Below, one piece after another: positions 3,396-42,600 of a DNA stretch of 64,000 nucleotides. This DNA comes from Chrysaora quinquecirrha (Eukaryota; Cnidaria; Scyphozoa; Semaeostomeae; Pelagiidae), in NCBI GenBank assembly GCA_014526335.1, contig JACTAT010000059.1, positions 5,364,626-5,428,625 on the forward strand. The letters run 5' to 3'. The stretch's first letter is position 1; each line of letters starts with the position of its first letter. The notes under the pieces are model-generated. The model worked only from the letters and a program-made list of their open reading frames with translations, was not told the origin of the DNA and ran no database searches. Both the position numbers and the translations under genes were made by a program.

Positions 3396-6300
3396 GTTTC
3401 GACTCGAGCCAACAGTCATTATTGGACGTGCAACCCGGAAACAGACCTGACAACGAATGGTAAGATATACAGTATAGTCTGGTTATAACATACTTGCTTG
3501 TAATGTACTCTCGTAAATATTTGCCATTGAAATTGTCCCTATAGAGCCAGACACACGAAGGGAAGACCCAGTTTATAATTTACCTTGCTTATAACGTACC
3601 AAATAATACGGCCCCTTCAAGTGCGTAATTATATTGTACGGATTACGGATTACTGTAACTTTCAAGGTGTTAAATCTTCTTGGAATTAAGCTGATTATTA
3701 TTGCATGACTGTATGAGGCGATCATGACGGATTGAACATGTAATTGAAACAAATTTCAGCTTAATTGTAGAAATTGTGAAAGCGTAATCCATTTCTACAC
3801 GATGTCACGATCGCTCGAAAGTGATCAAATGATTACAGCGATTGTTACAACAGGTGCTGAAGGTGCTGTGGCGTTGTCGTAGTGTAATCCAGCTGACTCG
3901 TGGTGTCAAGAGCTCAGTGTGGTCAGGGTTCGAACCCAGCTACGGTAGCGTCACAGCCAGGGTCGAAGTCTCGATTAGTTAACCCTTTACTGAGATCCTA
4001 ACGACTGGCGCTAAATACACCATTTCACCTTCACCTTAACAACAACCAAGTCATTACCATTTGCATTGAAGATCTTAATATGTTTGCTGTGAAGCCTCCA
4101 TTAACGGACATCTGTTTACGAACCCCCCAACAAGGGACAAGTGTTTAAGTCTATAAGGCCATTTCTTTTTAAAAATAAACCTCCATACAACGGACACTTC
4201 TCCACAACGGACAATGACATTGATCTATTGTATTGATCCCAAAGGTGTCCGATATATGGAGGCCCATCTATATGCAATTAGAAAATGTATGAAAAGCATG
4301 GAGATCCATGTGCGATCTGTCTAGGGAGTCCGGTGACTTGCTTCCCCTCAAATTTTTTTGCATTTCTTGTAGGCTTGTTTATAGAACTTCAAATTCTCCG
4401 AAGAATGAAGATGAATGGAATCAAATGCAGTTTGTTGACAAAACGTACTTAGGATACTACACATGGCCAAGGTATCAGCTTGCAAACCTTAATCGTGTAT
4501 TAAGTATAAAATGTATTTGTCATGAATGGCGAATACATGGATAGATTTTTCCACAAGTGGCATACCACAATTGATGGGATTTGAACCCAGGACTGCATGA
4601 TCAGAATGCCAACCACGTTTCCACTGAGCTATAGAGCTCAATAAAATCGCCGAGTTATACAGCCCAAGGCTGTCCTCCGTTTTTGAATTTTTTTGTGTTT
4701 CTGCTATAGCTCTATTAGGCAGGACATATACCACTGCAATCTAACAAATAGGGTAACTTTTTGTTTTAATGTGGATTCTAGCGTTTTAAAGCATGGGGAA
4801 CAAAATCAGCCCATGGGCCTTTGCGATATCGTCCGAATTTGGGCGTGGTCGATGACGTCATCAAGGAATGCATTTTTGGTCATTTGCATTGTGTTTTCAA
4901 CACTTTTCCACTTTTTTTAGTGTTTTTGATCAATGCAATGCTAATGGGCCACAAGGATGATGTCGTTTACATTCAAAAATTACATGTGTTGGCAACATGG
5001 TGCACATGTGACCTATGACGTCATTTTTTAAAATTTTCTCAGTTGCACAATTTCTGGTCAAATCCGAAACATTTTCCGCCATTTTAAATTGTCAAATAAC
5101 CTAATATTGTTCTGAAAGTAAATGTATAGTTCTCTATGGCAGCATTGTTCCCTTGATATTTGCCTTCAGATTTAAAAAGAGAATCATCACCATAATCATT
5201 GTTATTATAAAAGTGGAGTTTTCAAAACCTGTGCCCCCATTCGATAAATTTCGTACAATTTTCAGCGTTTATATCCGTTAAAAGCGCGTCTTGGTTTGAA
5301 GCTTGGGATGTCTTCATCCAAGCAATGATCAAATTCCACCCAGATTTAGCCCCAGACCTGCTGTCCTATCAAGGAACGAGTTTTTAAAGCCCCTTATTTT
5401 GTACTGAAGTCAGTGTCAATGAGAGTGGTAATGGATCGGAACAAAAGTAGTGCATTGGCACTTAAAATGTGCAAGGGTGCGGCACTGAAGTCAGTGTCAA
5501 TGAGAGGGGTAATGGATTATGGTCGTGACCGCCAGGAGTTAATGAAGCATTCTACGTGTGCGTAAATGCACGTTAACGCCCAGGTCACATGTGTTGGGTC
5601 AATGAGAGTGGTCATGGATCGGACCAAAAAGTAGTGCATTGGCACTTAAAGGGTGCATGGGTGCGGCACTGAAGTCAGTGTCAATGAGAGTGATAATATA
5701 GCATAGGAGTAGTAGTGCATTGTCACCAATTAGCGCAAGGAAATTGCTCTGAAGTTAGTTTCAATAACGATGGTAATCTCGCATGAGAAAAGTAGCGCGT
5801 TAGCAAATCAAAGCGCAAATGTGCAGCATGCAGCACTGAAGTCAAGGTCAGGGTGAATGGTAATGCTAAATAACTTAACATCGAGAAACAGGGTTGTGAA
5901 TTTTGGTTTCGGCAGTAAGAGAAAACAACATCGAAAAACATCTTCCAGCGGAAAGGCAGATGCTGAAACAAGTCTTTGCTTTTGACCATCACATTTATGC
6001 TCGTTACCTTTCGTATCAACATGTCTTCCTTCGTGAGCTTCAAAGAAACGATCATCCAGCATTTCGCGATCCTGTTGTCCATGGATTTGGAGCAAACCTA
6101 TCCGGGAATAAGCTTGCAAGTATTCATGGCGATCTTGTAACAGAATTGTATAATCGTGAGACAAAGGGTACTGCTGGACCTTTCCGGTCAGGATACAGTA
6201 CTGACATCCAGACTACAAATACATGGGTAAAAACGGCTCACATTCATGCAAAGCTTCGTGTTGCATTGAGAGAAAAATTACGTTTTAAAACATCATCAGT

Positions 6301-9300
6301 TCATAAAGAACTTACTGAATCTGGAAAAAAACGCAATAAAAGCAACGTTGATAATCTTAAGTTGAAGCTTCATTCTTATCACGTAAATCCATTTGAAGAT
6401 GGACATGCGCGAACGAACTATCACCACTGGAGTTGAAATCGATTCAAACGTGGTGAATGGTCTTATAGAAGCAGCTGATATTGGAAATAAAAGATACACA
6501 GAGTTTGTCAAAGAACGTCTTGTAAGTGGAAACCAGAGTATTTTCGATGCAATCAAGAAACAGAAGCTGCTGACTGGAATGGAGAAAAAGAAGAAAGTGG
6601 CGAAGGCAATTTCAGTACTGAAAGAAGATCGCCAAGCATTTGGCTTGCTTATAGCAAAAGCGGTTAGCATTGAGGAAGAATTTCAATTTCCGATCACAAC
6701 CTTGCCTCTCGCCTTAGCAACTCCTGAAGGGCAGTTACGTCAATCCGATAAGGCTGTTCTCCGAAATTACCTTGTGCAAGAGTCAAATGCACTTACCACT
6801 GAATGCCCACGGATGCCATATGGCTTATTGACGGGATGGCCACTTTCAGATCAGTGAAACCAAAAGCCACTTATGCAGAATGGTTTATTCATGTTTTAAA
6901 ATGTGTTATGCCAAAATGTGATATAAGACCTCGGAAAATAGCACTTATAAATGACACATACAGAGCTGATAGCGTGAAAGCAGGAACAAGAGAAAAAAGG
7001 GGCACATTTTCAAAACGTGTTCGTTTACAAAGTTTTGATCAAAAGCAGCTGCAAGGTAAAGAATGGCAAGAGTTTTTGAGATCAGAAACAAAGAAGATCT
7101 GATTCATTTGGCAACAACATTTTTTAAATCTGAAGAAGCAAAAGCAAAACTCAAATTGCCTCTTGTTGTAACAGATAAGGAAAAAACATGGTTAATTGAA
7201 AAAAATCATTCCAGTGCAATGTTCAATTGTAACCATGAAGAAGCAGATACCAGGTTAGTTTTACACGCATCTTTGCAAGAATCAACCACTGTTGTTGTAG
7301 CGAAAGACACTGACGTCCTCATTCTTCTCCTATATGGTCATGTGAAAGTAAACCCAAAATATCCATGGTTCATGAAAATTGATCATGAAAAATACATCGA
7401 CATTGCAAAAATTCGTGATCACATAGGAGATGAAATATGTAAGATATTGCCACAGTTTCACGCAATTACAGGTTGCGACACAACTTCTTATATGTTCAAT
7501 GTTGGGAAGATCAAAGCATTAAAGCAAATAATGAAAAACCCAGAGCTTATTCACTTGATCAGCGAAATTGGAAACGAAAATGATGTTTTACAAGAAAATT
7601 TAGAGAATGCAAGAACTTTTGTTCAAATGGTCATGTACTCTGGAAAATACGATGAAAGTTACGTGGATACACGGGTACGTTTATACAAAAAAATGAAACA
7701 AAAATCTTCAGCAAGTTTGCCACCAGACCCAGCGTCACTAAAACAAGGAATTTTGCGGGCACATCTGCAAGCTCATATTTGGAAACAATGTCTAAAGCCG
7801 ATGGTGGTGGAGGTTTCAGTAACTGATTATGGGTGGATACGCAACAACACTGACATTACACCCTTGTGGTTCGAAGGAAACCAGCTTCCTCCGTCTTTAA
7901 GAAGGCAAAAAAGAGTGAGAAAAAACAATCAAACATCGAATACTGATGATGCAGACGATGAAAGTGACAGCTCCGGTCAAACAAAACTACCACCAACGAA
8001 AGAAGTGAAAGTAGCAAAGAAGATGCATACAATTGATACTGTACTTTACGACGCTGATTGCGAACTTTCTGACATCGCCCACTCTATATTGAAGCCAAGT
8101 GAATCAGAAAATGAATCCAACTCTTCGCAATGGGAAAGTGATTTTTCATCGTCTGATGATCAAGAAAACTCGGATAGTGACTATCTACCATTTTAATTGC
8201 ATTCCCTGTTTTGACTGGACAGTTGTTTTATGTTTTTGTCTATGTTATTTTTTAGTTAATGTTACGTTTTGCCAGGCAAAGAACTCGTGATTAACTAATA
8301 TGAAAATAATTAAAAATTAAAAGTCAAAAAAATGACGTCATAGGTCACATGTGCACCATGTTGCCAACACATGTAATTTTTGAATGTAAACGACATCATC
8401 CTTGTGGCCCATTAGCATTGCATTGATCAAAAACACTAAAAAAAGTGGAAAAGTGTTGAAAACACAATGCAAATGACCAAAAATGCATTCCTTGATGACG
8501 TCATCGACCACGCCCAAATTCGGACGATATCGCAAAGGCCCATGGGCTGATTTTGTTCCCCATGCTTTAAAACGCTAGAATCCACATTAAAACAAAAAGT
8601 TACCCTATTTGTTAGATTGCAGTGGTATATGTCCTGCCTATATAGCTCAGTGGAAACGTCGTCGGCTGTCCCATCATGAAGTCCAGGTTCGATTCCCATC
8701 TAAGTATAGAATGTATAGATAGATAAATAAATTAGATTAGCTATAATATTGAGGAACGTAGAATAGCTTGAATGCAAAGTGTACTAGACAAGAGTCTGCT
8801 ATGAGAAGAGCTCAAGAGCAGTTATTGTAAAAATAGAAATTTTACTTTAAACTCGAACAATACCGCGAAATATGGGAAATATGTATTGGAACCGCATTCG
8901 TTATACTAGAAAATGAAACTAAGTCCGAATAGCATTTTATATTTATGAAAACTTATACTTCGTCCTACAACAAAAGCACCATCAGAGTGCCATTCGGACT
9001 TGCCATGCTTTTTTAAGATTGTCTGTTGGTAAACGATTCCTTGTGATTTGTTGTAACTGAGCTAAAAACCATAAAGACTTAGGTATAAAATCAACTGAAT
9101 GGGTACCCAATAGCGTTGTATTTCAAAACGTCTTTCTTAATTTTTTCATTGAGATTAAATTTTTATTTTCACCGTTAATTCTTCTCTTCCTATAATAATA
9201 ATAGTAATAGCAGTACTAATTTATTAATTTACAGTTTACTAGAAACGAATATAGCCAGGTAGCTTATTGATGCCAGCTTAGTCTGCATACCGAACGTGTC

Positions 9301-23400: not shown

Positions 23401-24378
23401 TTTTAAATATGACCCATTGCTGGACGTTTCAAATACGATTTCCAATATCAACATGTGGCTTCATGTAGCAAAAATTTCAGTCTTTGGAATGTTCTACCTC
23501 GTGAAGCTTCTTGATATGTAGTCTTCCCCTGGCGTCCCCCATAAAAACAAAATCTCGATCCCAGTTTACATTCAACAAGCCCGTCAACAACAAAATGTAT
23601 CCCCGGGGTGGGGAACTTCATTTGGCCATGATTACACTTTTTTTTCAAGATTTTCCGACCCATAAATTTCCATGATTAGCTATATGGTAATTTGAAACCC
23701 ATGTGTATTAATGTGATTGACTTTAAAACTTTTTTGCTGTACTAAAATGCGCGCGAAGCCTAGCAAATCAAACATGACCATGATCCTTTGCAAGTAATGT
23801 GACGGGGCTCTGTTGTTGTTGTACAAAAAGTGCTGACTTTATCGTCATCGTTTCGAACGCACAGAATGCAAAGAAAAAAACTTTCAGTTGCTTTGTGGTT
23901 ATTCAGAACGAACCGAGATCCTAGCGACTGGCGCTAAATACACCATTTCACCTTTAAGTCTTGTGGGGCGTCTGGCCAGATCTGTTAGACCAAATCCAGG
24001 GAGCGCTGGCCCGACCAGATCTTTCTATTAAATATGATGCTCTGTTCTTGCTAAAAAAAGGACGTTCATAATATGAATCAAATACATGTTTACGAAAAGT
24101 ATGGTTGTGCAGTTTATTTATGCTCGGGTTCATTAGTTCTGCTTGTCCACCTGCTAGAAGCCCTATTGCAAGCAAGAGGTGCGAGATTCTTAGATGAATT
24201 TGAAATTTTAGATAATTTGCTGGTCTATGGGAGCAAAAAAGTCTAGCCGAAAATTAAAACTAAACTTAAAACCGAAAATCCGAAAGAAAATTGTGAAAAC
24301 TAAGGGAAAATTACCCGAAAATATTCGAATAACCCTGTAGAGGTCTGGGTCGAGGGCACGTTCGATCCTGCCTCCGAA
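23401..24378. other. intergenic spacer upstream of CENPF copy A
   Basis: Apart from a 50 bp fragment of SINE family 2 (about 23905-23956) I see no gene or RNA here. The segment homologous to the copy B promoter begins only near 24297. Confidence 0.4.
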
Positions 24379-24473
24379 GCGGGAAAACCGTTGAGAGTTC
24401 GCGCCAAAAAATTCTGAATGAAGACAAGATGGAAGGACTATCTGCACGAGGATGATTTGATCGCTAATTCAAA
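24379..24473 (+). promoter_or_regulatory. CENPF copy A promoter with paired E2F-like sites
   Basis: GCGGGAAAA at 24379-24387 is the reverse of TTTTCCCGC, and TTCGCGCCAAA at 24398-24408 is the reverse of TTTGGCGCGAA; both are E2F-type. TTCAAA at 24468-24473 is the reverse of a CHR core TTTGAA. Vertebrate CENPF is a known cell-cycle (E2F/DREAM) target, which makes these sites plausible. Confidence 0.55.
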
Positions 24474-24506
24474 GCAACTAAACCCGATCAGAATCCAGAT
24501 TTCAAG

Positions 24507-27500
24507 ATGAGCTGGGCTAGAGATGAATGGAAGAATGAGCTGCCAGCAATTGCTTTGCAGAACATCGAAAAACTCGAGAAAAATCTGGAAGTTTTGAAGA
24601 AGGACAAACAGCAAAGAGCGTATCAGTTGGACTCACTCGAGTCAGCCTTGAACTTACAAAAGAAGAAAAACGAAGAAGACAGAGCGAAAAATGCTGAGTT
24701 AAAAAGAGATATTAATACTTTATCAGAAAGATGTGATGAACTCGGAAGATCTCGAGACAAGATTTCACAAGAATTGCAGACGAAAGACGCAAGGATTGGT
24801 GTTTTGGATTCCACCCTCCAGAGAACAAAACAGGCCTACGAAAATGAACTTGCGAAGTATAATAAACTCACCCAAGAGCTGGAGAAAGAGCAAGCCGAAA
24901 AGATCAGCATAACTTTAAAGCTTGAGAAAGCAAATGAAGATCGACACAAACTCAGTGAAATTAATAATATCCAAAGACAAAAGCTTTCAAGCAGTGGATC
25001 AATCAGTGATGGTAATTTTGATTTTTTTTTGGCATGCTGGGGGAGGGGGACCACGGAATCTACGATAGGATATGATCAATCCCCTACCTGCAAGGTCGAC
25101 CAATCAAGAACCCTATCACGTCACCAGAAATTAATTTTTGAATTTCACTTTAGTTTGCCCTGCTTATTTTGATTCTTGCTGTATTGTCATTTGAACCTGT
25201 TCCTATTTTTGACAAAACGCTTTCTAGACAAGTCGGCCCACTACCAGGCCGGGTCGACTTGTCTAACACATGATGGGCCGATTTATCTAACACATGGTGG
25301 GTTGACTTTGTAGTGGGCCGACTTGTCCTGTTACCAATAAAACCAGAGTCAAAATATATACAAGGGATCAGGTTAAATGTGGTGCTGTGGACTACGTATG
25401 GAGCCCTGATACAAAAGAAACATTGTACTGGACTTGGATATGTGAACTTTAGAGGACCCACTTTCTTACAAAGATTCCCATTGAGTTGAATTTCTGTTTT
25501 CATTGTTTCACCTTCAAAATTTCAAATGCAACTGATTCGATTGTGTAGGTGTTGTGGCATTGTGGCCCAACACAGCTAGCTGGTGGTGTTGGAGCTCAGC
25601 CTGGAGGGTTGTGCTTTCATTAGTTGATCTACTTCTAGAATCCCAGCAAGTGGAGCTTAAACATCATTGCACCTTCACCTTTGTTGTTGAAGTAAAGATG
25701 AAGGCCCTGTCTGCAATCATCCGTTCCTGTATTTGACAAGGGTCTCTGACCTGTTGGGTTTTGAATGCTTGAGTGGCTACTTTCTGGCTTGTTAATGTTT
25801 TACTTACTGAGTTTTCTCCTTTTTAGATAAAGAAACAAACAAAATTATTGATGATTTGCAAAAAATGCTTAGAGAAAAAGAGGATGAGATATGCAGAATG
25901 AAAAAAGACATCAATTCCAATGTAAGCAACAATGTTTTTCTTGTTTTGGTAGATCTCTAATGTTTTAAGAGAATATCATAAAAAACTTAAAGCATTAAAG
26001 CATGAAACTTTGATTGACAGTATGCCTTTATAAAGTAAGACATGTGTTGTGGTGTGCTTGGTGAATGCATGCCTAATAAAACAAGTTCAGTCCCTAGTCT
26101 TGAAAGAAGAATAAAGCATAGGTCAAAATAATGTCAAAATATTTAAGAAATGCTTTTTCCTGCGTACCCTAATCCCTCTAATAAATTTTCATTTAATGAA
26201 CCCCTCCACTTTCCATAAAAAAGGCAATAAACATCTGTCTCTAGCAAGTTTGAAAATTAAAAGGTATTGCTGACCTCGAGAAATGACAAGTTGCTTCATT
26301 CGTTTGATTACTATTATTAGTGTCTTTAGAAAGAAAGAGCAATTTGATATCTTGGCAAACTGATTGGTATTCAAAGCACAATACTTATATAATCTGCTTC
26401 TCTGTTTCTATTCCACATCTTTTTCAATTGTTGTGGCAATTCTGACCTTTTAACATTAAACAAAAAATTTGTCCAGTATCTTCCAACTTGTTTCTACATT
26501 TTGCATTACACGTTTTTTTTTTATAAGGAACACCTTTATAAGGAACTCGAGGCTGAAAATTCCCAAAAAATTAAGGAACTTTAAGGAACTGTCGAGGCTC
26601 AGATGAAAAACTAAGAAACTCTTTTTCAAAGAACAAGACGGTTTGTACGAAAAAGGAACAGAAGTACAATGTATTTCCTATCGTTCTTCCCCAAAAAGGC
26701 TCCATTTATACTTAAAGTTAGAAATGAAGAATAGTTTATATGGATTTGCTGTAAAAATTAGTATTTATACATATCCCACGACAAGGAACAGTATAAGGAA
26801 CTTTCAGCCTCAATTTGTTGAAAAATTAAGGAACTCCAGCCTCAACTCAGACCAAAGGTTCCTTATAAAAAAAAATGTGTACTGAAGTTTAGTGAAGTTT
26901 TGCATATTGAAGTTTTGTAAATTGTGAAGTGTTGTAAATTGTGAAGTTTTGTTCAACTAAAGTACTAGTGAGAGTATTTAAACCACTGATGATCCGCCTC
27001 TAGATTCTTATAAAGTTTTCTCTGATAAAGCAGAAATTTCTTACAGAAAAATTAAAGAAAATTTTAAGAAACTTTTTAAATGATGGTGATATTCTGTAAG
27101 TTGAATTTTTCAAATCAATGATTTTTATTTATTCTTATTAAAGGGTAAATTCTCCGTGCAAGGCAGAAATGAAGATACAATTTCATTGATGGATTTTTCT
27201 GCTAATGGTGATGATCTTATGTCATTTGATTGTGATACAGTTTCAATTCAACCAGCCAAAACCCCAGGAGTCAAGCGTAAATCCTCAGCTAAAAATGATG
27301 TAGATTTGTTGCTGCTGAATGAAGATAAGACTGTGGATCAAACTGAGATTCAGGATCTAAGAGAGGAAATCAAACAATTAAATATCAAGTTGGAAAAGAC
27401 TTTGAAAGAAATTGATTCAAAAGACAGAGCTCTTGATAAAAAAGACAATGATATGCTTCAGGTATGCATGAAGAAATGCTTTTGATATTTTCCCATTTTC

Positions 27501-30500: not shown

Positions 30501-33179
30501 ACAGAATCATTGCGATTTAACTTCCCATAGACTTTTTTCATAATTATGGAGAATTTCAACATATTCGTTGACCTAATCGCCAGTTTTTCAGCTACGTAGA
30601 ATTTTATCCAAACAGGTTAATTTGTTAGACCGACTATGTTTACTATAGCTACTTTTAAGGATGTGGCTGTTGGCTATTCCGATGTCTACCTGTGTGACAG
30701 AATCAGGAAAAGTTGTCGTTTGTTCTAAACTCGACATTTAAAACTTTTAAGGCAACAGTTTCATAGAAACGGGTTTTGTCGTGAATTTTAGAAATTTTGA
30801 ATTCTAGTTGTCTATTTGTTTGAATAATGATTGTTGCTTCTTGGATTTGCTCAGCAACATCTTGATCTTATTTGATGAGTTGTCAGAGTAAACTAATCAT
30901 TTTTTCTAATTCTATTCTGTCCTTATTGCATAGCCATCGATAGGAATGGGCATTCATTGATTAAAGTGGCTATCTTTCAATGGATTGATAATGACTTTTT
31001 TCTTTCACCCAAGGTCAAAAAAGAAGATAATGATAAGCAGTTGAAGTTTGATCAGCTACTGGGAGAGAAGAACGAAATTCTGTCGAATTATGAGAAGATC
31101 TGTTTGGAAAGAGATGGAGTTAGTGAAAAGCTGGTGTTTACTGAAAAGAAGCTTTCTGAAATCGAGAGTGTTACTGCAGAGCAAAAGACACAGTTAGAGA
31201 AATTAATTCAAGAGAAGAATATGGTGCTGTTGGAAGCTGAAAAGATTCAAGATGAAAAAGAATGTTTTAATCAGGAGAAATCTCTGCTTCAGGGTAAATT
31301 ATTGGAGATAGAAGGTTTCCTTGAGGAAAACAAGAAGAGTCTGGAACAAGAAGCTAAGGAGAAGGAAGAAATTAAGTTGAAGTTTGAAGAAGCATTTGCT
31401 GAGAAGAATAAGTTGCTATCCGAAATGGAAAAGTTTGATAATGAAAAGGAAAGTCTTAGTCGAGACAACTCAGAGCTTCAAGGTAAACTTTTGGAAATAG
31501 AGGGCTTGCTGGAAGAAAACAAAAAGATTCTAGAGCAAGAAGCCAGAGGGAAGGAAGATGTTGAGCTGCAGCTTCAGAAAGTGTTGGATGAGAAGAATCA
31601 GTTGTTATCGGATGTAAGGAAGTTTGAGGATGAAAGAGAATCTCTTAATCAGGAGAAATGTCAGCTAAAGGAAATGCTTTTGAAGACGGAAGCTTTGGCG
31701 CAGGAAGCAGCCAAGGACAAAGATGAAATCAATTTGCAGCTAGAACAATTGATGAATGAGAAAAGGCAGTTGCTATCAGATGCAACGAATTTTGAGGATG
31801 AGAGAGAAGCTCTTAATCAAGAGAAATCTCAACTAAAGGATAGTTTCTTGAAGATGGAAGCTTTGGTGCAGGAAAATGAAAAGATTCTGGAACAAGCAAC
31901 CAAGGAAAAGGATGAAGTAAGGTCGCAGGTAGACCATTTACTGGGTGAGAAAGAGAAGTTGCTGTCGGTTGCAAGGAAATTTGACGAAGAGAGAGAATCT
32001 CTAAATCAGGAGAAATCTCAGCTAAAGGATAGTTTATTGAAGATGGGGACTTTGATTCAGGAAAAGGAAAAGATTTTACAACAAGCAACCAAGGAAAAGG
32101 ATGAAGTAAGGTCGCAGCTAGAACATTTACTGGGTGAGAAAGAGAAGTTCCTGTCGGTTGCAAGGAAATTTGACGAAGAGAGAGAATCTCTAAATCAGGA
32201 GAAATCTCAGCTGCAGGAAAGGTTGTTGAAGATGGAGGCTCTGATGCAGGAAAATGAGACAGTTTTGGGAGAAGCAACCAAGGAAAAGAAAGAAGTTTTA
32301 GAAGCATTTGAAAATCTAAGATTTGAAAGAGATGTAATGGAGGAAAATAAGATGGCCATCGAGCAGCAAGTAAAAGAGTTAAATAATTGCCTTCGTGTGA
32401 ACCAGATGAAGTTAGAAGAAGAGATAGCGGGAAAGAAAGAACTAGTTATCAATCTAGAGGCTTTAAAAACGGAAAAGGATAACCTCATCAAAGAGCAAGA
32501 ATCATTAAAGGATAAGTTGGTTGGTTTGGAAAAGGAAAGGCAAGAAAAACAAATGAAGTTTGAAGAAACATTGAGAGAAAAAGAAGAAATTTCCTCTGCC
32601 TTCGAGGAGGTAATAAACCAGAAGAATGACCTTATGAAGGAATTTGCTGCCAAGGAAACAAAAATATCAGAATTAGATAAGGAAAACGAGAATCTGCGTA
32701 AAGTTTTTGTTGATTACCAGGCTTTGAAGGAAGAATGTGCTGGGTTACGATCCACTGCTGAATCTGCTAAGGAAGCACTTGTCTTTGAGAAGGAGAGGTA
32801 TAAGCATGCCTGCTTGTCCTTGGAAAAAGCAGAAAATTCTTGGAAGGACGAGCTTGGGCGTGTGAGTTTAGAGAAAGGAAGTATCGAAGCTGAGCTTGAA
32901 GAAATCAGAAGGGAACTGCAGCAACAGAATCTAGAGATGGCTGAGTTTGAAGGAAAATCCGCTTTAGAGAAAAAAGAAATGCTAGTCAGGGTTGGGAATT
33001 TGCAGAAGGAAGCTGAAGAGAAAAAGGAAGAAGGAGTTAGGTTGAGTGCTGCGTTGGAAGATCATGTCAAGAGTGTGAAGAACTTGAAAGCTGATTTAAC
33101 GAAAGCGGATGATGAACTGAAAAGGGTGACAGCACAACTTGAAATAAAGCAAATGGATATGGATGATCATTGCCTGTAG
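24507..33179 (+). CDS. CENPF: Centromere protein F (mitosin) N-terminal duplicate, truncated copy A
   Basis: Exons: 24507-25011, 25827-25921, 27144-27461, 27900-28044 (acceptor at 27889, so the coding start is 27890), 29171-30275, 31014-33179. All join in frame without a break, giving about 1447 residues of almost pure coiled coil. The start M-S-W-A-R-D-E-W-K and the K-Q-Q-R-x-x-Q-L-D-S-L-E block match the N terminus of vertebrate CENPF closely. Homology with copy B ends inside codons for D-M-D-D; two residues later comes TAG, so the long C-terminal part with the kinetochore-binding region and CaaX box is absent. Exon 6 has six 63-residue repeats against four in copy B. The promoter and splice sites are kept, so a shortened protein could be made. 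Confidence 0.85.
25227..25327. repeat. small foldback in intron 1, copy A
   Basis: GACAAGTCGGCCCACTAC (25227-25244) is mirrored exactly at 25310-25327. The interior repeats TCTAACACATGRTGGG twice. The same structure is at 34414-34514 in copy B, so it predates the duplication. Confidence 0.75.
25547..25680 (+). repeat. SINE family 2-like remnant, intron 1 copy A
   Basis: GGTGTTGTGGCATTGTGG... and GGAGCTCAGCCTGGAGGG resemble the head of the SINE at 3850. The CACCTTCACCTTTG tail is present. The paralogous remnant is at 34735-34867. Confidence 0.45.
26509..26879. mobile_element. MITE, TAAGGAAC family, present only in copy A
   Basis: Ends CACGTTTTTTTTTTATAAGG and CCTTATAAAAAAAAATGTG are flanked by TA (26507-26508 and 26880-26881). 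The matching intron of copy B reads CATTACTGAAG with a single TA at 35744-35745. That is an empty site, which fixes both the borders and the 2 bp duplication. Confidence 0.88.
31260..32350 (+). repeat. six 63-residue coiled-coil repeats, copy A exon 6
   Basis: Units start N-Q-E-K-S-Q-L or S-R-D-N-S-E-L and end F-D-E-E-R-E-S-L. Most are 63 residues (nine heptads, 189 bp) and one is 56 (eight heptads). Copy B has four such units at about 39955-40680. The difference is 357 bp, exactly 17 heptads. Confidence 0.85.
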
Positions 33180-33488
33180 CAGCTGATGACGTCATCAGTG
33201 AAAATTCAACGTTCATTAAAATGAAAGAATTATATATCAATCGAAAGGTCTGTTTGCCCTCTCTGCGAATATACATGTATTATTTGACTTAATGGAATGC
33301 TTGAGATTATATTCTCGAAAAACTACCGAAATCGCGTGTTTATGACGTCATCAAAAAAGGCAACTTCCGGTCAAAATTTCAAAAGTCCCCAGGTGAAATT
33401 CGAATTCAGCATGTTTGAAAACCTAGATTCCGTTTTCAAAAGTTTGACTGGAAAAGTTTTCCGATTTTGCCGGGAAGAGACCTGTCTA
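33170..33488. other. junction segment between CENPF copies
   Basis: About 319 bp with no counterpart near the other breakpoints. It starts right after the last shared base of copy A and ends where promoter homology starts (33489, like 24300). It holds the 16 bp palindrome CTGATGACGTCATCAG near 33181 and another TGACGTCA near 33343. It may be the original upstream region of the gene or an inserted piece. Confidence 0.6.
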
Positions 33489-33566
33489 TAAGGGAAAATT
33501 GCCCGAAAATATTCGAATAACCCTGTAGAGGTCTGGATCGAGGGCACGTTCGATCCTCCCTCCGAA

Positions 33567-33661
33567 GCGGGAAAACCGTTGAGAATTCGCGCCAAAAAAT
33601 TCTGAATGAAGACGGGATGGAAGGACTATCTGCACGAGGATGATTTGATCGCTAATTCAAA
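33567..33661 (+). promoter_or_regulatory. CENPF copy B promoter with paired E2F-like sites
   Basis: GCGGGAAAA at 33567-33575, TTCGCGCCAAA at 33586-33596 and a CHR-like TTCAAA at 33656-33661 keep the same order as in copy A, with nearly the same spacing to the ATG. They are unchanged although neighbouring bases differ. Confidence 0.58.
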
Positions 33662-33693
33662 GCAACTAACCCGATCAGAATCCAGATTTCAAG

Positions 33694-36600
33694 ATGAGCT
33701 GGGCCAGAGATGAATGGAAGAATGAGCTGCCAGCAATTGCTTTGCAGAACATCGAAAAACTTGAGAAAAATCTGGAAGTTTTGAAGAAGGACAAACAGCA
33801 AAGAGCATATCAGTTGGACTCACTCGAGTCAGCCTTGAACTTGCAAAAGAAGAAAAGCGAAGAAGACAGAGCGAAAAATGCTGAGTTAAAAAGAGATATT
33901 AATACTTTATCAGAAAGATGTGATGAACTTGGACGATCTCGAGACAAGATTTCACAAGAACTGCAGACGAAAGAGGCAAGGATTGGTGTTTTGGATTCCA
34001 CCCTCCAGAGAACAAAACAGGCCTACGAAAATGAACTTGCGAAGTATAATAAACTCACCCAAGAGCTGGAGAAAGAGCAAGCCGAAAAGATCAGCATAAC
34101 TTTAAAGCTTGAGAAAGCAAATGAAGATCGACACAAACTTAGTGAAATTAATAATATCCAAAGACAGAAGCTTTCAAGCAGTGGATCAATCAGTGATGGT
34201 AATTTTAATTTTTTTCTGGCATGCTGGGGGAGGGGGACCACGGAATCTACGATAAGATATGATCAATCCCCTACCTGCAAGGTCGACCAATCAAGAACCC
34301 TATCACGTCACCAGAAATTAATTTTTGAATTTCACTTTAGTTTGCCCTGCTTATTTTGATTCTTGCTGTATTGTCATTTGAACCTGTTCCTATTTTTGAC
34401 AAAACGCTTTCTAGACAAGTCGGCCCACTACCAGGCCAGGTCGACTTGTCTAACACATGATGGGCCGACTTATCTAACACATGGTGGGTCGACTTTGTAG
34501 TGGGCCGACTTGTCCTGTTACCAATAAAACCAGAGTCAAAATATATGCAAGAGATCGGGTTAAACGTGGCATTGTGGACTACATATAAAGCCCTGATACA
34601 ATAGAGACATTGTACTGGACTTGGATATGTGAACTTTAGAGGACCCACTTTCTTACAAAGATTTCCATTGAGTTGAATTTCTGTTTTCATTGTTTCACCT
34701 TCAAAATTTCAAATGCAACTGATTCGATTGTGTAGGTGTTGTGGCATTGTGGCCCAACACAGCTAGCTGGTGGTGTTGGAGCTCAGCCTGGAGGGTTGTG
34801 CTTTCATTAGTTGATCTACTTCTGGAATCCCAGCAAGTGGAGCTAAAACATCATTGCACCTTCACCTTTGTTGCTGAAGTAAAGATGAAGGCCCTGTCTG
34901 CAATCATCCGTTCCTGTATTTGACAAGGGTCTCTGACCTGTTGGGTTTTGAATGCTTGAGTGGCTACTTTCCGGCTTGTTAATGTTTTACTTACTGAGTT
35001 TTCTCCTTTTTAGATAAAGAAACAAGCAAAATTATTGATGATTTACAAAAAATGCTTAGAGAAAAAGAGGATGAGATATGCAGAATGAAAAAAGACATCA
35101 ATTCCAATGTAAGCAACAATGTTTTTCTTGTTTTGGTAGCCAGTTTTTTTATCATGCTTAAGATCAGGTTAGATCTCTAATTTTGTAGTAAAGAAATGTT
35201 TAAGAGAATATCATAAAAAAACTTAAAGCATTACAGGCATGAAACTTTGATTGACAGTATGCCTTTATAAAGTAAGACATGTGTTGTGGTGTGCTTGGTG
35301 AATGCATGCCTAATAAAACAAGTTCAGCCCCTAGTCTTGAAAGAAGAATAAAGCATAGGTCAAAATAATGTCAAAATATTCAAGAAATGCTTTTTCCTGC
35401 GTACCCTTATCCTTCTAATAAATTTTTATTTAATGAACCCCTCCACTTTCCATAAAAAAGGCAATAAACATCTGTCTCTAGCAAGTTTGAAAATTAAAAG
35501 GTATTGCTGACCTCGAGAAATGACAAGTTGCTTCATTCGTTTGATTACTATTATTAGTGTCTTTAGAAAGAAAGAGCAATTTGATATCTTGGCAAACTGA
35601 TTGGTATTCAAAGCACAATACTTATATAATCTGCTTCTCTGTTTCTATTCCACATCTTTTTCAATTGTTGTGGCAATTCTGACCTTTTAACATTAAACAA
35701 AAAATTTGTCCAGTATCTTCCAACTTGTTTCTACATTTTGCATTACTGAAGTTTAGTGAAGTTTTGAATATTGAAGTTTTGTAAATTGTGAAGTGTTGTA
35801 AATTGTGAAGATTTGTTCAACTAAAGTACAAGTGAAAGTATTTAAGAAAAATTAAAGAAAGTTTTAAGAAACTTTTTAAATGATGGTGATATTCTGTAAG
35901 TTGAATTTTTCAAATCAATGATTTTTATTTATTCTTATTAAAGGGTAAATGCTCTGTGCAAGGCAGAAATGAAGATACAATTTCATTGATGGATTTTTCT
36001 GCCAATGGTGATGATCTTATGTCATTTGATTGTGATACAGTTTCAATTCAACCAGCCAAAACCCCAGGAGTCAAGCCTAAATCCTCAGCTAAAAATGATG
36101 TAGATTTGTTGCTGCTGAATGAAGATAAGACTGTGGATCAAACTGAGATTCAGGATCTAAGAGAGGAAATCAAACAATTAAATATCAAGTTGGAAAAGAC
36201 TTTGAAAGAAATTGATTCAAAAGACAGAGCTCTTGATAAGAAAGACAATGATATGCTTCAGGTATGCATGAAGAAATGCTTTTGATATTTTCCCATTTTC
36301 AACCCTGTTAACATATACAAAATTATTGGGATAGCTATGGCGATACAATTTATCTTGATAGCGATTGGGATAGAGAGTCGCATTCAAATGACAAATTGTT
36401 ATCAGGATAGGATTTTTATATCTGGGTAGACTAGGGTGATGTAAATTTGTTGGTTGCTTGCAAAAATCTAAATATGCCTAACTTACATTTCATCATCTTT
36501 TCAAACAAGTTCAAAACTGACTAGCCATGACTTCCTCCTTGTATTTTGATTCCTGTTCTCATGAGTTGAACTTATAATTGGCACAAAATTAATTTGTGAA

Positions 36601-39600: not shown

Positions 39601-42600
39601 GAGATTCCCAGCAGCCGTCTGTAACATTTCATGATAGGAATGGGCATTCATTGATTAAAGTGGCTATCTTTCAATGGATTGATAATGACTTTTTTCTTTC
39701 ACCCAAGGTTAAAAAAGAAGATAATGATAAGCATTTGAAGTTAGATCAGCTACTGGGAGAGAAGAACGAAATTCTGTCGAATTATGAGAAGATCTGTTTG
39801 GAAAGAGATGGAATTAGTGAAAAGCTGGTGTGTACTGAAAAGAAGCTTTCTGAAATCGAGAACGTCACTACAGAGCAAAAGACAAAGATAGAGCAATTAA
39901 CTCAAGAGAAGAATTTGGCGCTGTTGGAAGCTGATAAGATTCAAGATGAAAGAGAATGTTTTAATCAGGAGAAATCTCTGCTGCAAGGTAAATTATTGGA
40001 GGTAGAAGGTTTCCTTGAGGAAAACAAGAAGAGTCTGGAACAAGTAGCCAAGGAGAAGGAAGAAATTAAGTTGAAGTTTGAAGAAGCATTTGCTGAGAAG
40101 AATAAGTTGCTATCCGAAATGGAAAAGTTTGATAATGAAAAAGAAAGTCTTAGTCGAGACAAAGCTGAGCTTCAGGGTAAACTATTGGAAATAGAGGGCT
40201 TGCTGGAAGAAAACAAAAAGATTCTAGAGCAAGAAGCCAGAGGGAAGGAAGATGTTGAGCTGCAGCTACAGAAAGTGTTGGATGAGAAGAATCAGTTGTT
40301 ATCGGATGTAAGGAATTTTGAGGATGAAAGAGAATCTCTTAGTCAGGAGAAATCTCAGCTGAATGATCAGTTATTGAAGATGGAGGCTTTGGTGCAAGAA
40401 AATGAAAAGATTTTGGAACAAGCAACCAAAGAAAAGAACAAAGTAAAGTCGCAGCTAGAACATTTACTGGGTGAGAAAGAGGAGTTGCTATCGGTTGCAA
40501 GGAAGTTTGACGAAGAAAGAGAATCTCTAAATCAGGAGAAATCTCAGCTGCAGGAAAGGTTGTTGAAGATGGAGGCTCTGATGCAGGAAAATGAGACAGT
40601 TTTGGGAGAAGCAACCAAAGAAAAGAAAGAAGTTTTAGAAGCATTTGAAAATCTAAGATTTGAAAGAGATACAATGGAGGAAAATAAGATGGCCATCGAG
40701 CAGCAAGTAAAAGAGTTAAATAATTGCCTTCATGTGAACCAAATGAAGTTAGAAGAAGAGATAGCGGGAAAGAAAGAACTAGTTATCAATCTAGAGGCTT
40801 TAAAAACGGAAAAGGATAACCTCATCAAAAAGCAAGAATCATTAAAGGATAAATTGGTTGGTTTGGAAAAGGAAAGGCAAGAAAAACAATTGAAGTTTGA
40901 AGAAACATTGAGAGAAAAAGAAGAAATTTCCTCTGCCTTCGAGGAGGTAATAAACCAGAAGAATGACCTTATGAAGGAATTTGCTGCCACGGAAACAAAA
41001 ATATCAGAATTAGATAAGGAAAACGAGAATCTGCGTAAAGTTTTTGTTGATTACCAGGCTTTGAAGGAAGAATGTGCTGGGTTACGATCCACTGCTGAAT
41101 CTGCTAAGGAAGCACTTGTCTTTGAGAAGGAGAGGTATAAGCATGCCTGCTTGTCCTTGGAAAAAGCAGAAAATTCTTGGAAGGACGAGCTTGGGCGTGT
41201 GAGTTTAGAGAAAGGAAGTATCGAAGCTGAGCTTGAAGAAATCAGAAGGGAACTGCAGCAACAGAATCTAGAGATGGCTGAGTTTGAAGGAAAATCCGCT
41301 TTAGAGAAAAAAGAAATGCTAGTCAGGGTTGGGAATTTGCAGAAGGAAGCTGAAGAGAAAAAGGAAGAAGGAGTTAGGTTGAGTGCTGCGTTGGAAGATC
41401 ATGTCAAGAGTGTGAAGAACTTGAAAGCTGATTTAACGAAAGCGGATGATGAACTGAAAAGGGTGACAGCACAACTTGAAATAAAGCAAATGGATATGGA
41501 TGATCAACAAGAGATTATTAAAGAGAAAGAAGAAAATATTTTGGAATTACAAAAGTCAAACCTGTCATTGACGACAAGAGGTAGTGAATTAGAAGATAAA
41601 CTCAAGCAGTTGTACTCTGATATTGAATCCAACGCTAGGAGCTATGGAGAATTGACTGCTGAGAATGCAAAATTGAACGAAGATCTTGGTTTGAATGCTT
41701 CTAAATTGAAAGACGTGGAAGAAGAGCTGTGTAAAGTACGAGAGGATTTTGATGCTAAAGAGTTGCAAAGGACTTTAGCGGAGAACATGCTATTGGTTAA
41801 AGAGGAGAGCCTAAAAGAGAAAGAAAAGGAGCTAAAGAGGTTGCAAGATACTGTTGATATTTATGATAAGAGTCTGATGCACAAGAGTGAGGAATTGTCA
41901 CAAATAAAGGCAAATTCAGAGCTGCTGGAATCGAATCTAAGGAATTTGCAGGAAGAATTAAAGCAAGTAGAAAATGAGAAGAAAGCTCTAGATGTTGAAA
42001 GAGAGAAAAGCGTTGAACAAATGAACAGTGTTATTGAAGGACAACGTGCTGAGTTACACCAGCTGACTGAACAGATTGAAAGGCTTGTTGAGGAGAATGG
42101 AAAGCTGGAGCAAAAAGCACAAGAAGTGAAGGAGAATTCGGAAAAAAAGTTTCTCAGCTGAGTCGTGATTTCAGGCAAAGGATCAACAGTTTGGAATCAA
42201 ACTTGTCTGAGAAGGAAAGATTGCTTGATGATAAGGATAATGAGCTGGGTGACGTGGAGGTGAAGGTGAATGCCTTGGAGAGAGAAAGCAGTGAATTGAA
42301 ATCAAGATGTGTGGAAGCTGGTGAGAAATTAAAAGAAGCAGAGGACAATGCAAAGAGAAACGTTGTTGATTACAAAGAGAAGATCTTTTCATTGCAGAGA
42401 GAAGTATCAGAGCTCGATCTAAAGCTATCCGAAGCTAATGAAGCAGTCGACTCGCTGAGATTAAAGAACCATTCTCTTGAAGCTAAACTCGAAGAGTATG
42501 CCATGCTAAATGGTGATTTACAAGAAAGGGTCCGAGGTGGTATTGACAATAACGAGCAGCTGGTTTTGAAGATTTCGAACATGGAACAGGCGATGTCTAA

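Follow-up and report, generated by a model that had tools for sequence, protein, structure and literature searches.

A recently inserted, probably non-autonomous XPG-nuclease transposon in Chrysaora quinquecirrha, most likely of the AcademX lineage

We analyzed a stretch of 64,000 nucleotides from the scyphozoan Chrysaora quinquecirrha (contig JACTAT010000059.1, positions 5,364,626 to 5,428,625; C420 in our numbering), in the following called the window, in which positions 4716-8640 are occupied by an element of 3,925 bp. Very probably, a non-autonomous copy of a cut-and-paste transposon inserted here recently; its lineage is most likely AcademX, and a more complete relative presumably moved it. 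The element has identical arms and a 3-bp target site duplication (TSD), it lacks the N-terminal half of a gene that is fused in its relatives, its reading frames are broken, and the copies of the family differ in their internal deletions.

Arms, target site and copies in the genome

The arms are identical at 314 of 314 bases, as the earlier note on this DNA had described, and a repeat search finds three mismatches when it lengthens the arms to 322 nt. The element and its surroundings are composed as follows:

4713-4715: left copy of the TSD, TAT
4716-5029 (+): left terminal inverted repeat, 314 bp, starting with TAGGCAGGACAT
4853-4860: TGACGTCA palindrome at arm position 138
5016-5023: TGACGTCA palindrome at arm position 301
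5030-5205 (+): non-coding left subterminal part, partly or wholly common to other copies (as far as element position 490)
5206-5901: filler at the internal deletion, common only to the C146 copy among the loci compared
5903-6400 (+): C-terminal end of the DUF6589/DDE-type transposase domain, with the third proposed catalytic acid (E), the first two being absent
6387-6857 (+): frame piece, linker that joins the transposase domain to the nuclease domain
6803-7102 (+): frame piece, N-terminal part of the XPG/FEN1-like nuclease (LIDG at 6824, INDTYR at 6947)
7060-8196 (+): frame piece, remaining nuclease (HEEADTR at 7234, KDTDV at 7303, GCDTTS at 7471) and acidic C-terminal tail
8327-8640 (-): right terminal inverted repeat, 314 bp
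8333-8340: TGACGTCA palindrome, right arm
8496-8503: TGACGTCA palindrome, right arm
8641-8643: right copy of the TSD, TAT
8644-8701 (+): remainder of the target, a tRNA-like short interspersed nuclear element (SINE) head in our reading

Removal of the element yields AGCTCTATAGCTCAGTGG. The target is what we take to be a tRNA-like SINE head, judged by its presumed box A and box B words; ARAGORN reported no tRNA gene in the window. Three further SINE-head copies of the window contain TATAGCTCAGTGG (53989 on the plus strand, 53959 and 4633 on the minus strand), and in two of these three the site restored by removal, GAGCTCTATAGCTCAGTGG, is read exactly. These sister copies represent the empty site of the insertion, and the duplication and exact restoration proposed in the earlier note hold.

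The genome (328 Mb, 740 contigs) was searched with 335 bases of the arm; the match counts are lower bounds. At least 40 matches were obtained, 19 of 40 with the same arm and 21 with a sister arm that is 71-74% identical over arm positions ~22-146. The same-arm matches comprise eight two-armed copies of 3,258-4,384 bp, the window copy included, and three single arms on contigs C202, C337 and C380. All eight two-armed copies are flanked by 3-bp TSDs, each of them different, and TAGGCAGG is present at 15 of their 16 ends, the remaining end being off by one base. The arm is not confined to this locus, with seven further two-armed copies, and the borders are consistent, which excludes two objections that the earlier note had raised against its own proposal. 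No unrelated transposase was found in the eight copies. For the sister arm, the sample consisted of nine two-armed copies (places on C275 and C439 were left out); all nine have TSDs, which measure 3 bp in eight copies, whose ninth counterpart, TTTT, can be read as 3 or 4 bp. The stretch fetched from C361 (L028) contains a single arm.

The broken gene and its longer relatives

The coding part of the window copy consists of four overlapping open frames (5900-6436, 6387-6857, 6803-7102 and 7060-8196) with three frame changes and is not one open gene. Judged from its sequence, the cargo corresponds to the C-terminal half, with its frame broken, of a protein of ~1,600 amino acids (aa), for which we predict N-terminal Cys/His motifs (our own reading), a DUF6589 RNase-H-like DDE-type domain and a C-terminal XPG/FEN1/EXO1-like 5'-nuclease. 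Residues 819-1498 of the relative P0175 are matched in broken frames, and the match to the relative P0125 extends to its last residue at 8190. No part of the first ~800 residues was detected in 4300-5878, and tblastn with nine relatives (E <=0.01) detected no N-terminal exons in 4716-5878. Of the three proposed catalytic acids, both D residues are therefore lost; the third (E) is kept at codon 6143-6145, as are all seven nuclease acids according to our motif reading. Positions 5900-6433 match the C-terminal end of DUF6589 with 19.4 bits (E 4.7e-4), below the Pfam cut-off of 27, but we assign them to the end of the transposase domain because the longer relatives show it. Thus, the earlier description of a nuclease-like cargo stands, while the statement that it contains no recognisable transposase has to be corrected. 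The window copy probably moves only with the help of a more complete relative.

A longer copy between the same arms, which the earlier note had suggested looking for, was found on C516, where an unbroken frame of 1,063 aa holds the nuclease and transposase regions. Both regions also share one frame in proteins of 1,567-1,625 aa, and a D-D-E set is conserved in relatives alongside DUF6589. Near-complete relatives of 6-6.6 kb with 3-bp TSDs are present in the same genome. C306 (6,263 bp, 462-bp arms at 98.9%, TSD GTA) and C121 (6,442 bp, 308-bp arms at 99.7%, TSD TGT) contain the long gene, largely or completely, inside TAGRCAGG ends, and C257 has arms of ~773 bp and, if TACAGGGG is taken as its end, a TSD ATT in our reading of the flanks. 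The matches in C306 and C257 are free of internal stops, that of C257 from P0175 residue 126 onward, and in C121 the long gene is split over three frames. In the sister-arm copies C246 and C224, residues 1-510 and those from 544 onward are matched, spread over several frames.

The interruption of P0175 matches between residues 510 and 544 recurs in several copies (L024, L025, L028 and other genome matches), which suggests a conserved short intron. The relatives P0125 and P0166 are labelled as proteins of bacterial metagenome-assembled genomes (Flavobacteriaceae and Sedimenticola), likely reflecting animal DNA in these bins.

Several points weigh against our interpretation. The C516 match starts at P0175 residue 542, so even this frame, the longest between the same arms, is missing the first of the proposed catalytic acids (residue 486). 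DUF6589 is under the cut-off or missing in several relatives, Foldseek gave only weak matches for a DDE fold (HzTransib, E 0.14, probability 0.30; RAG1, E 0.44, probability 0.06), and the VIA rows cover the nuclease part only, leaving the DDE fold unconfirmed. Furthermore, no complete, full-length member with exactly the window arm was found in the genome search, with its lower-bound counts.

The window copy is most likely derived by internal deletion from an XPG-bearing transposon of the DDE type, for which AcademX is the best provisional name, given by description. The nuclease of AcademX is of the XPG type. As printed in PMC10045372, AcademX elements have TSDs of 3 or 4 bp and encode a nuclease, and AcademH elements encode a helicase and have TSDs of 9 or 10 bp. 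The window family resembles AcademX in its 3-bp TSDs, the encoded nuclease and the long gene, and its near-complete relatives of 6-6.6 kb compare with a mean of 5,565 bp for curated bivalve Academ elements (PMC10294476); the window copy differs by its missing N-terminal half. AcademH would belong to the same superfamily, if the assignment holds, but combines a helicase with 9 or 10 bp TSDs instead of a nuclease with 3 bp. A helicase-type reading is ruled out by the 3-bp TSDs in eight of eight copies and by Pfam, which revealed no helicase family (E <=0.1) in six long relatives or nine others. It is unlikely that the element derives from another DDE superfamily that gained an XPG-like domain independently of Academ: the DUF6589 label names no superfamily and the likeness to Academ comes from descriptions, but an encoded nuclease together with 3-bp TSDs fits AcademX as printed in PMC10045372. 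The deletion derivative of an AcademX-like element envisaged in the earlier note is supported, as far as tested, by the C516 copy, the relatives that join transposase and XPG-like domain, and the uniform TSDs; its alternative of a new family holds to the same extent. What is new is the family, and the kind of element is already known. By title, the papers listed offered nothing on Academ with an XPG nuclease; there was also nothing on FEN1, XPG or PIN with a domesticated transposase, and none of the papers listed for DUF6589 and transposases contains DUF6589.

The predicted nuclease shares its fold with the EXO1/FEN1/XPG 5'-nucleases over residues 90-449 of the P0003 model, and its putative acidic set, from motif reading, has D replacing one E. 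In contrast to these enzymes, to which identity is ~8-13% among the structural alignments listed, it is part of a transposase and its function is a predicted one. A PDB sequence search with the longest frame gave no match up to E 1; in viral_contigs the exact 26-base arm-end pattern had 0 matches and no relatives of P0003 were confirmed.

With the unbroken C516 frame as reference, the window copy shows three frame-shifting indels, no stop, and 6 synonymous and 22 non-synonymous changes, giving a ratio of non-synonymous to synonymous rates (dN/dS) of 0.99 over 761 codons. Frame-shifting indels, 2-5 per copy, are present in each of the six copies compared, and five of these copies also have 1-4 stops. 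Over all codons dN/dS is 0.37 (C102), 0.53 (C276) and up to 1.16 (C146); for the nuclease part it ranges from 0.33 to 3.36, with small counts. The low values of C102 and C276 speak against purely neutral decay and may represent changes predating the deletions. For the nuclease part, comparison of the C516 gene with that of C224 gives a dN of 0.32, a saturated dS of ~2.5 and a ratio of 0.13; for the transposase part dS was not computable. Thus, complete lineages have conserved the nuclease, and the derivatives compared carry it in a broken frame.

These data bear on two further explanations. A host origin of the XPG-like gene, as cargo of a transposon that took it up and lost its own transposase, might be read from the nuclease being the most complete part of the window copy, but this very improbable scenario is already contradicted by the single frame for nuclease and transposase in C516 and in the long proteins, and by the C516/C224 ratio, saturated dS included. 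It is extremely improbable that the XPG-like protein moves the element alone, without a DDE enzyme: the nuclease region is retained in seven of eight two-armed copies, but the frame carries shifting indels in six of six copies compared with C516, its dN/dS against C516 is ~1.0 in the window copy, and most of the nuclease is missing from C294 and the one-armed C202.

Internal deletions and the movement of derivatives

The left breakpoints vary among copies, with ~347-490 bases of the left end retained and joined to varying internal points, and 1-4 shared bases occur at each of four junctions read. In the window copy, filler positions 5403-5865 resemble a host tandem satellite (71-87% among the matches listed, 223 matches in all), and for the initial ~197 filler bases the matches listed come from C146 and the window itself only. 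As the window and C146 copies share this filler at different sites with different TSDs, the derivative moved after it had formed, presumably in trans. C294 and C202 represent a second shared derivative (99.5% identical), of which C202 is one-armed and from both of which most of the nuclease is missing. Internal-deletion derivatives of P and Ac/Ds elements likewise keep their ends and lose the interior, with short shared bases and filler at the junctions; unlike these, the window filler includes host satellite DNA.

We infer that gap repair after excision would have been interrupted and would have linked the left end to a position in the interior, and that in this copy satellite DNA of the host would have been taken up as filler. 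A more complete transposase from elsewhere would then bind the arms, excise the derivative and join it to a target with a 3-bp stagger. The nuclease domain probably acts on flaps or hairpins, by trimming or opening them, at the excision or the joining step. With near-complete XPG-transposase elements, derivatives with readable junctions and recent insertions in one genome, C. quinquecirrha offers material for asking why some transposases bear a flap-type nuclease.

A repeat of ~450 bp within the C294 copy (L014:1557-2005) has at least 38 further genome matches at 85-94%. The C276 copy contains a nested element of 1,103 bp with TAGGCAGGGAATT ends (L015:1866-2968), which carries TGACGTCA pairs; the window copy has the uninterrupted sequence, and the 3-bp TSD shows one difference.

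Paired palindromes and other features of the window

The unexpected part of our findings is the TGACGTCA pairs. The palindrome, which we take to be a CRE/ATF-type word, has seven occurrences in the window, of which six lie in three arms of the XPG-transposon kind. In 20 records it was counted 73 times in 15.5 kb of terminal sequence (380 bases of element ends), seven times in 69.9 kb of element interiors (five in the nested L015 element, two in the long C257 arms) and three times in 103 kb outside elements. Copies within a family cannot be treated as independent, so arm families are the proper unit of counting: exact pairs are present in six of seven families, and in five of seven the sites lie ~138 and 287-301 bp from the end. 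The positions are 138/301 in the window arm, 138/287 in the sister arm (L024), 138/297 in C306, 266/469 in C257, 139/295 in an arm at 33.5 kb of the window and, derived, 139/293 in the nested element; C121 has no exact copy, but partial GACGT words at 139 and 276. In the two main families, both sites (at 137-140 and 278-302) are present in 31 arms out of 34, and three arms lack one. Among five arms compared, from which the 33.5-kb and nested arms were left out, the window arm aligns with the sister over 22-146, and all other alignments are pieces of <30 bases.

Tentatively, and with slightly less than even confidence, we propose that the pairs, about one nucleosome apart in five of seven mostly non-aligning arm families, form a conserved two-site control or recognition element, serving either as internal binding sites for the XPG-bearing transposase or as a link to CREB/ATF-type host factors. 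The host-factor version, if true, would couple transposition to host signalling, and in either case the paired palindromes are a testable candidate site for transposase or host factor. In the literature on TGACGTCA and terminal inverted repeats, the only match was the human CSB-PGBD3 work.

The arm at 33.5 kb is a lone arm of another XPG-type element (33170-33488, minus strand, terminus TAGACAGGTCTC at 33488) and its position coincides exactly with a tandem-duplication junction: positions 33489-33700 match 24301-24513 at 96.7%, and 33101-33169 equals 41438-41506 at 100%. Aberrant transposition may have made this duplication. A long coiled-coil gene lies in two tandem copies at 24301-47755, the first truncated at the 33.17-kb junction. 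At the start of the window and upstream of it, inverted arms of 1,004 bp (-408 to 595 and 1281 to 2284; L032), 99.0% identical, contain the 3' half of another XPG-transposase gene; we do not claim -408 to 2284 as an element, as the repeat edges are without transposon termini.
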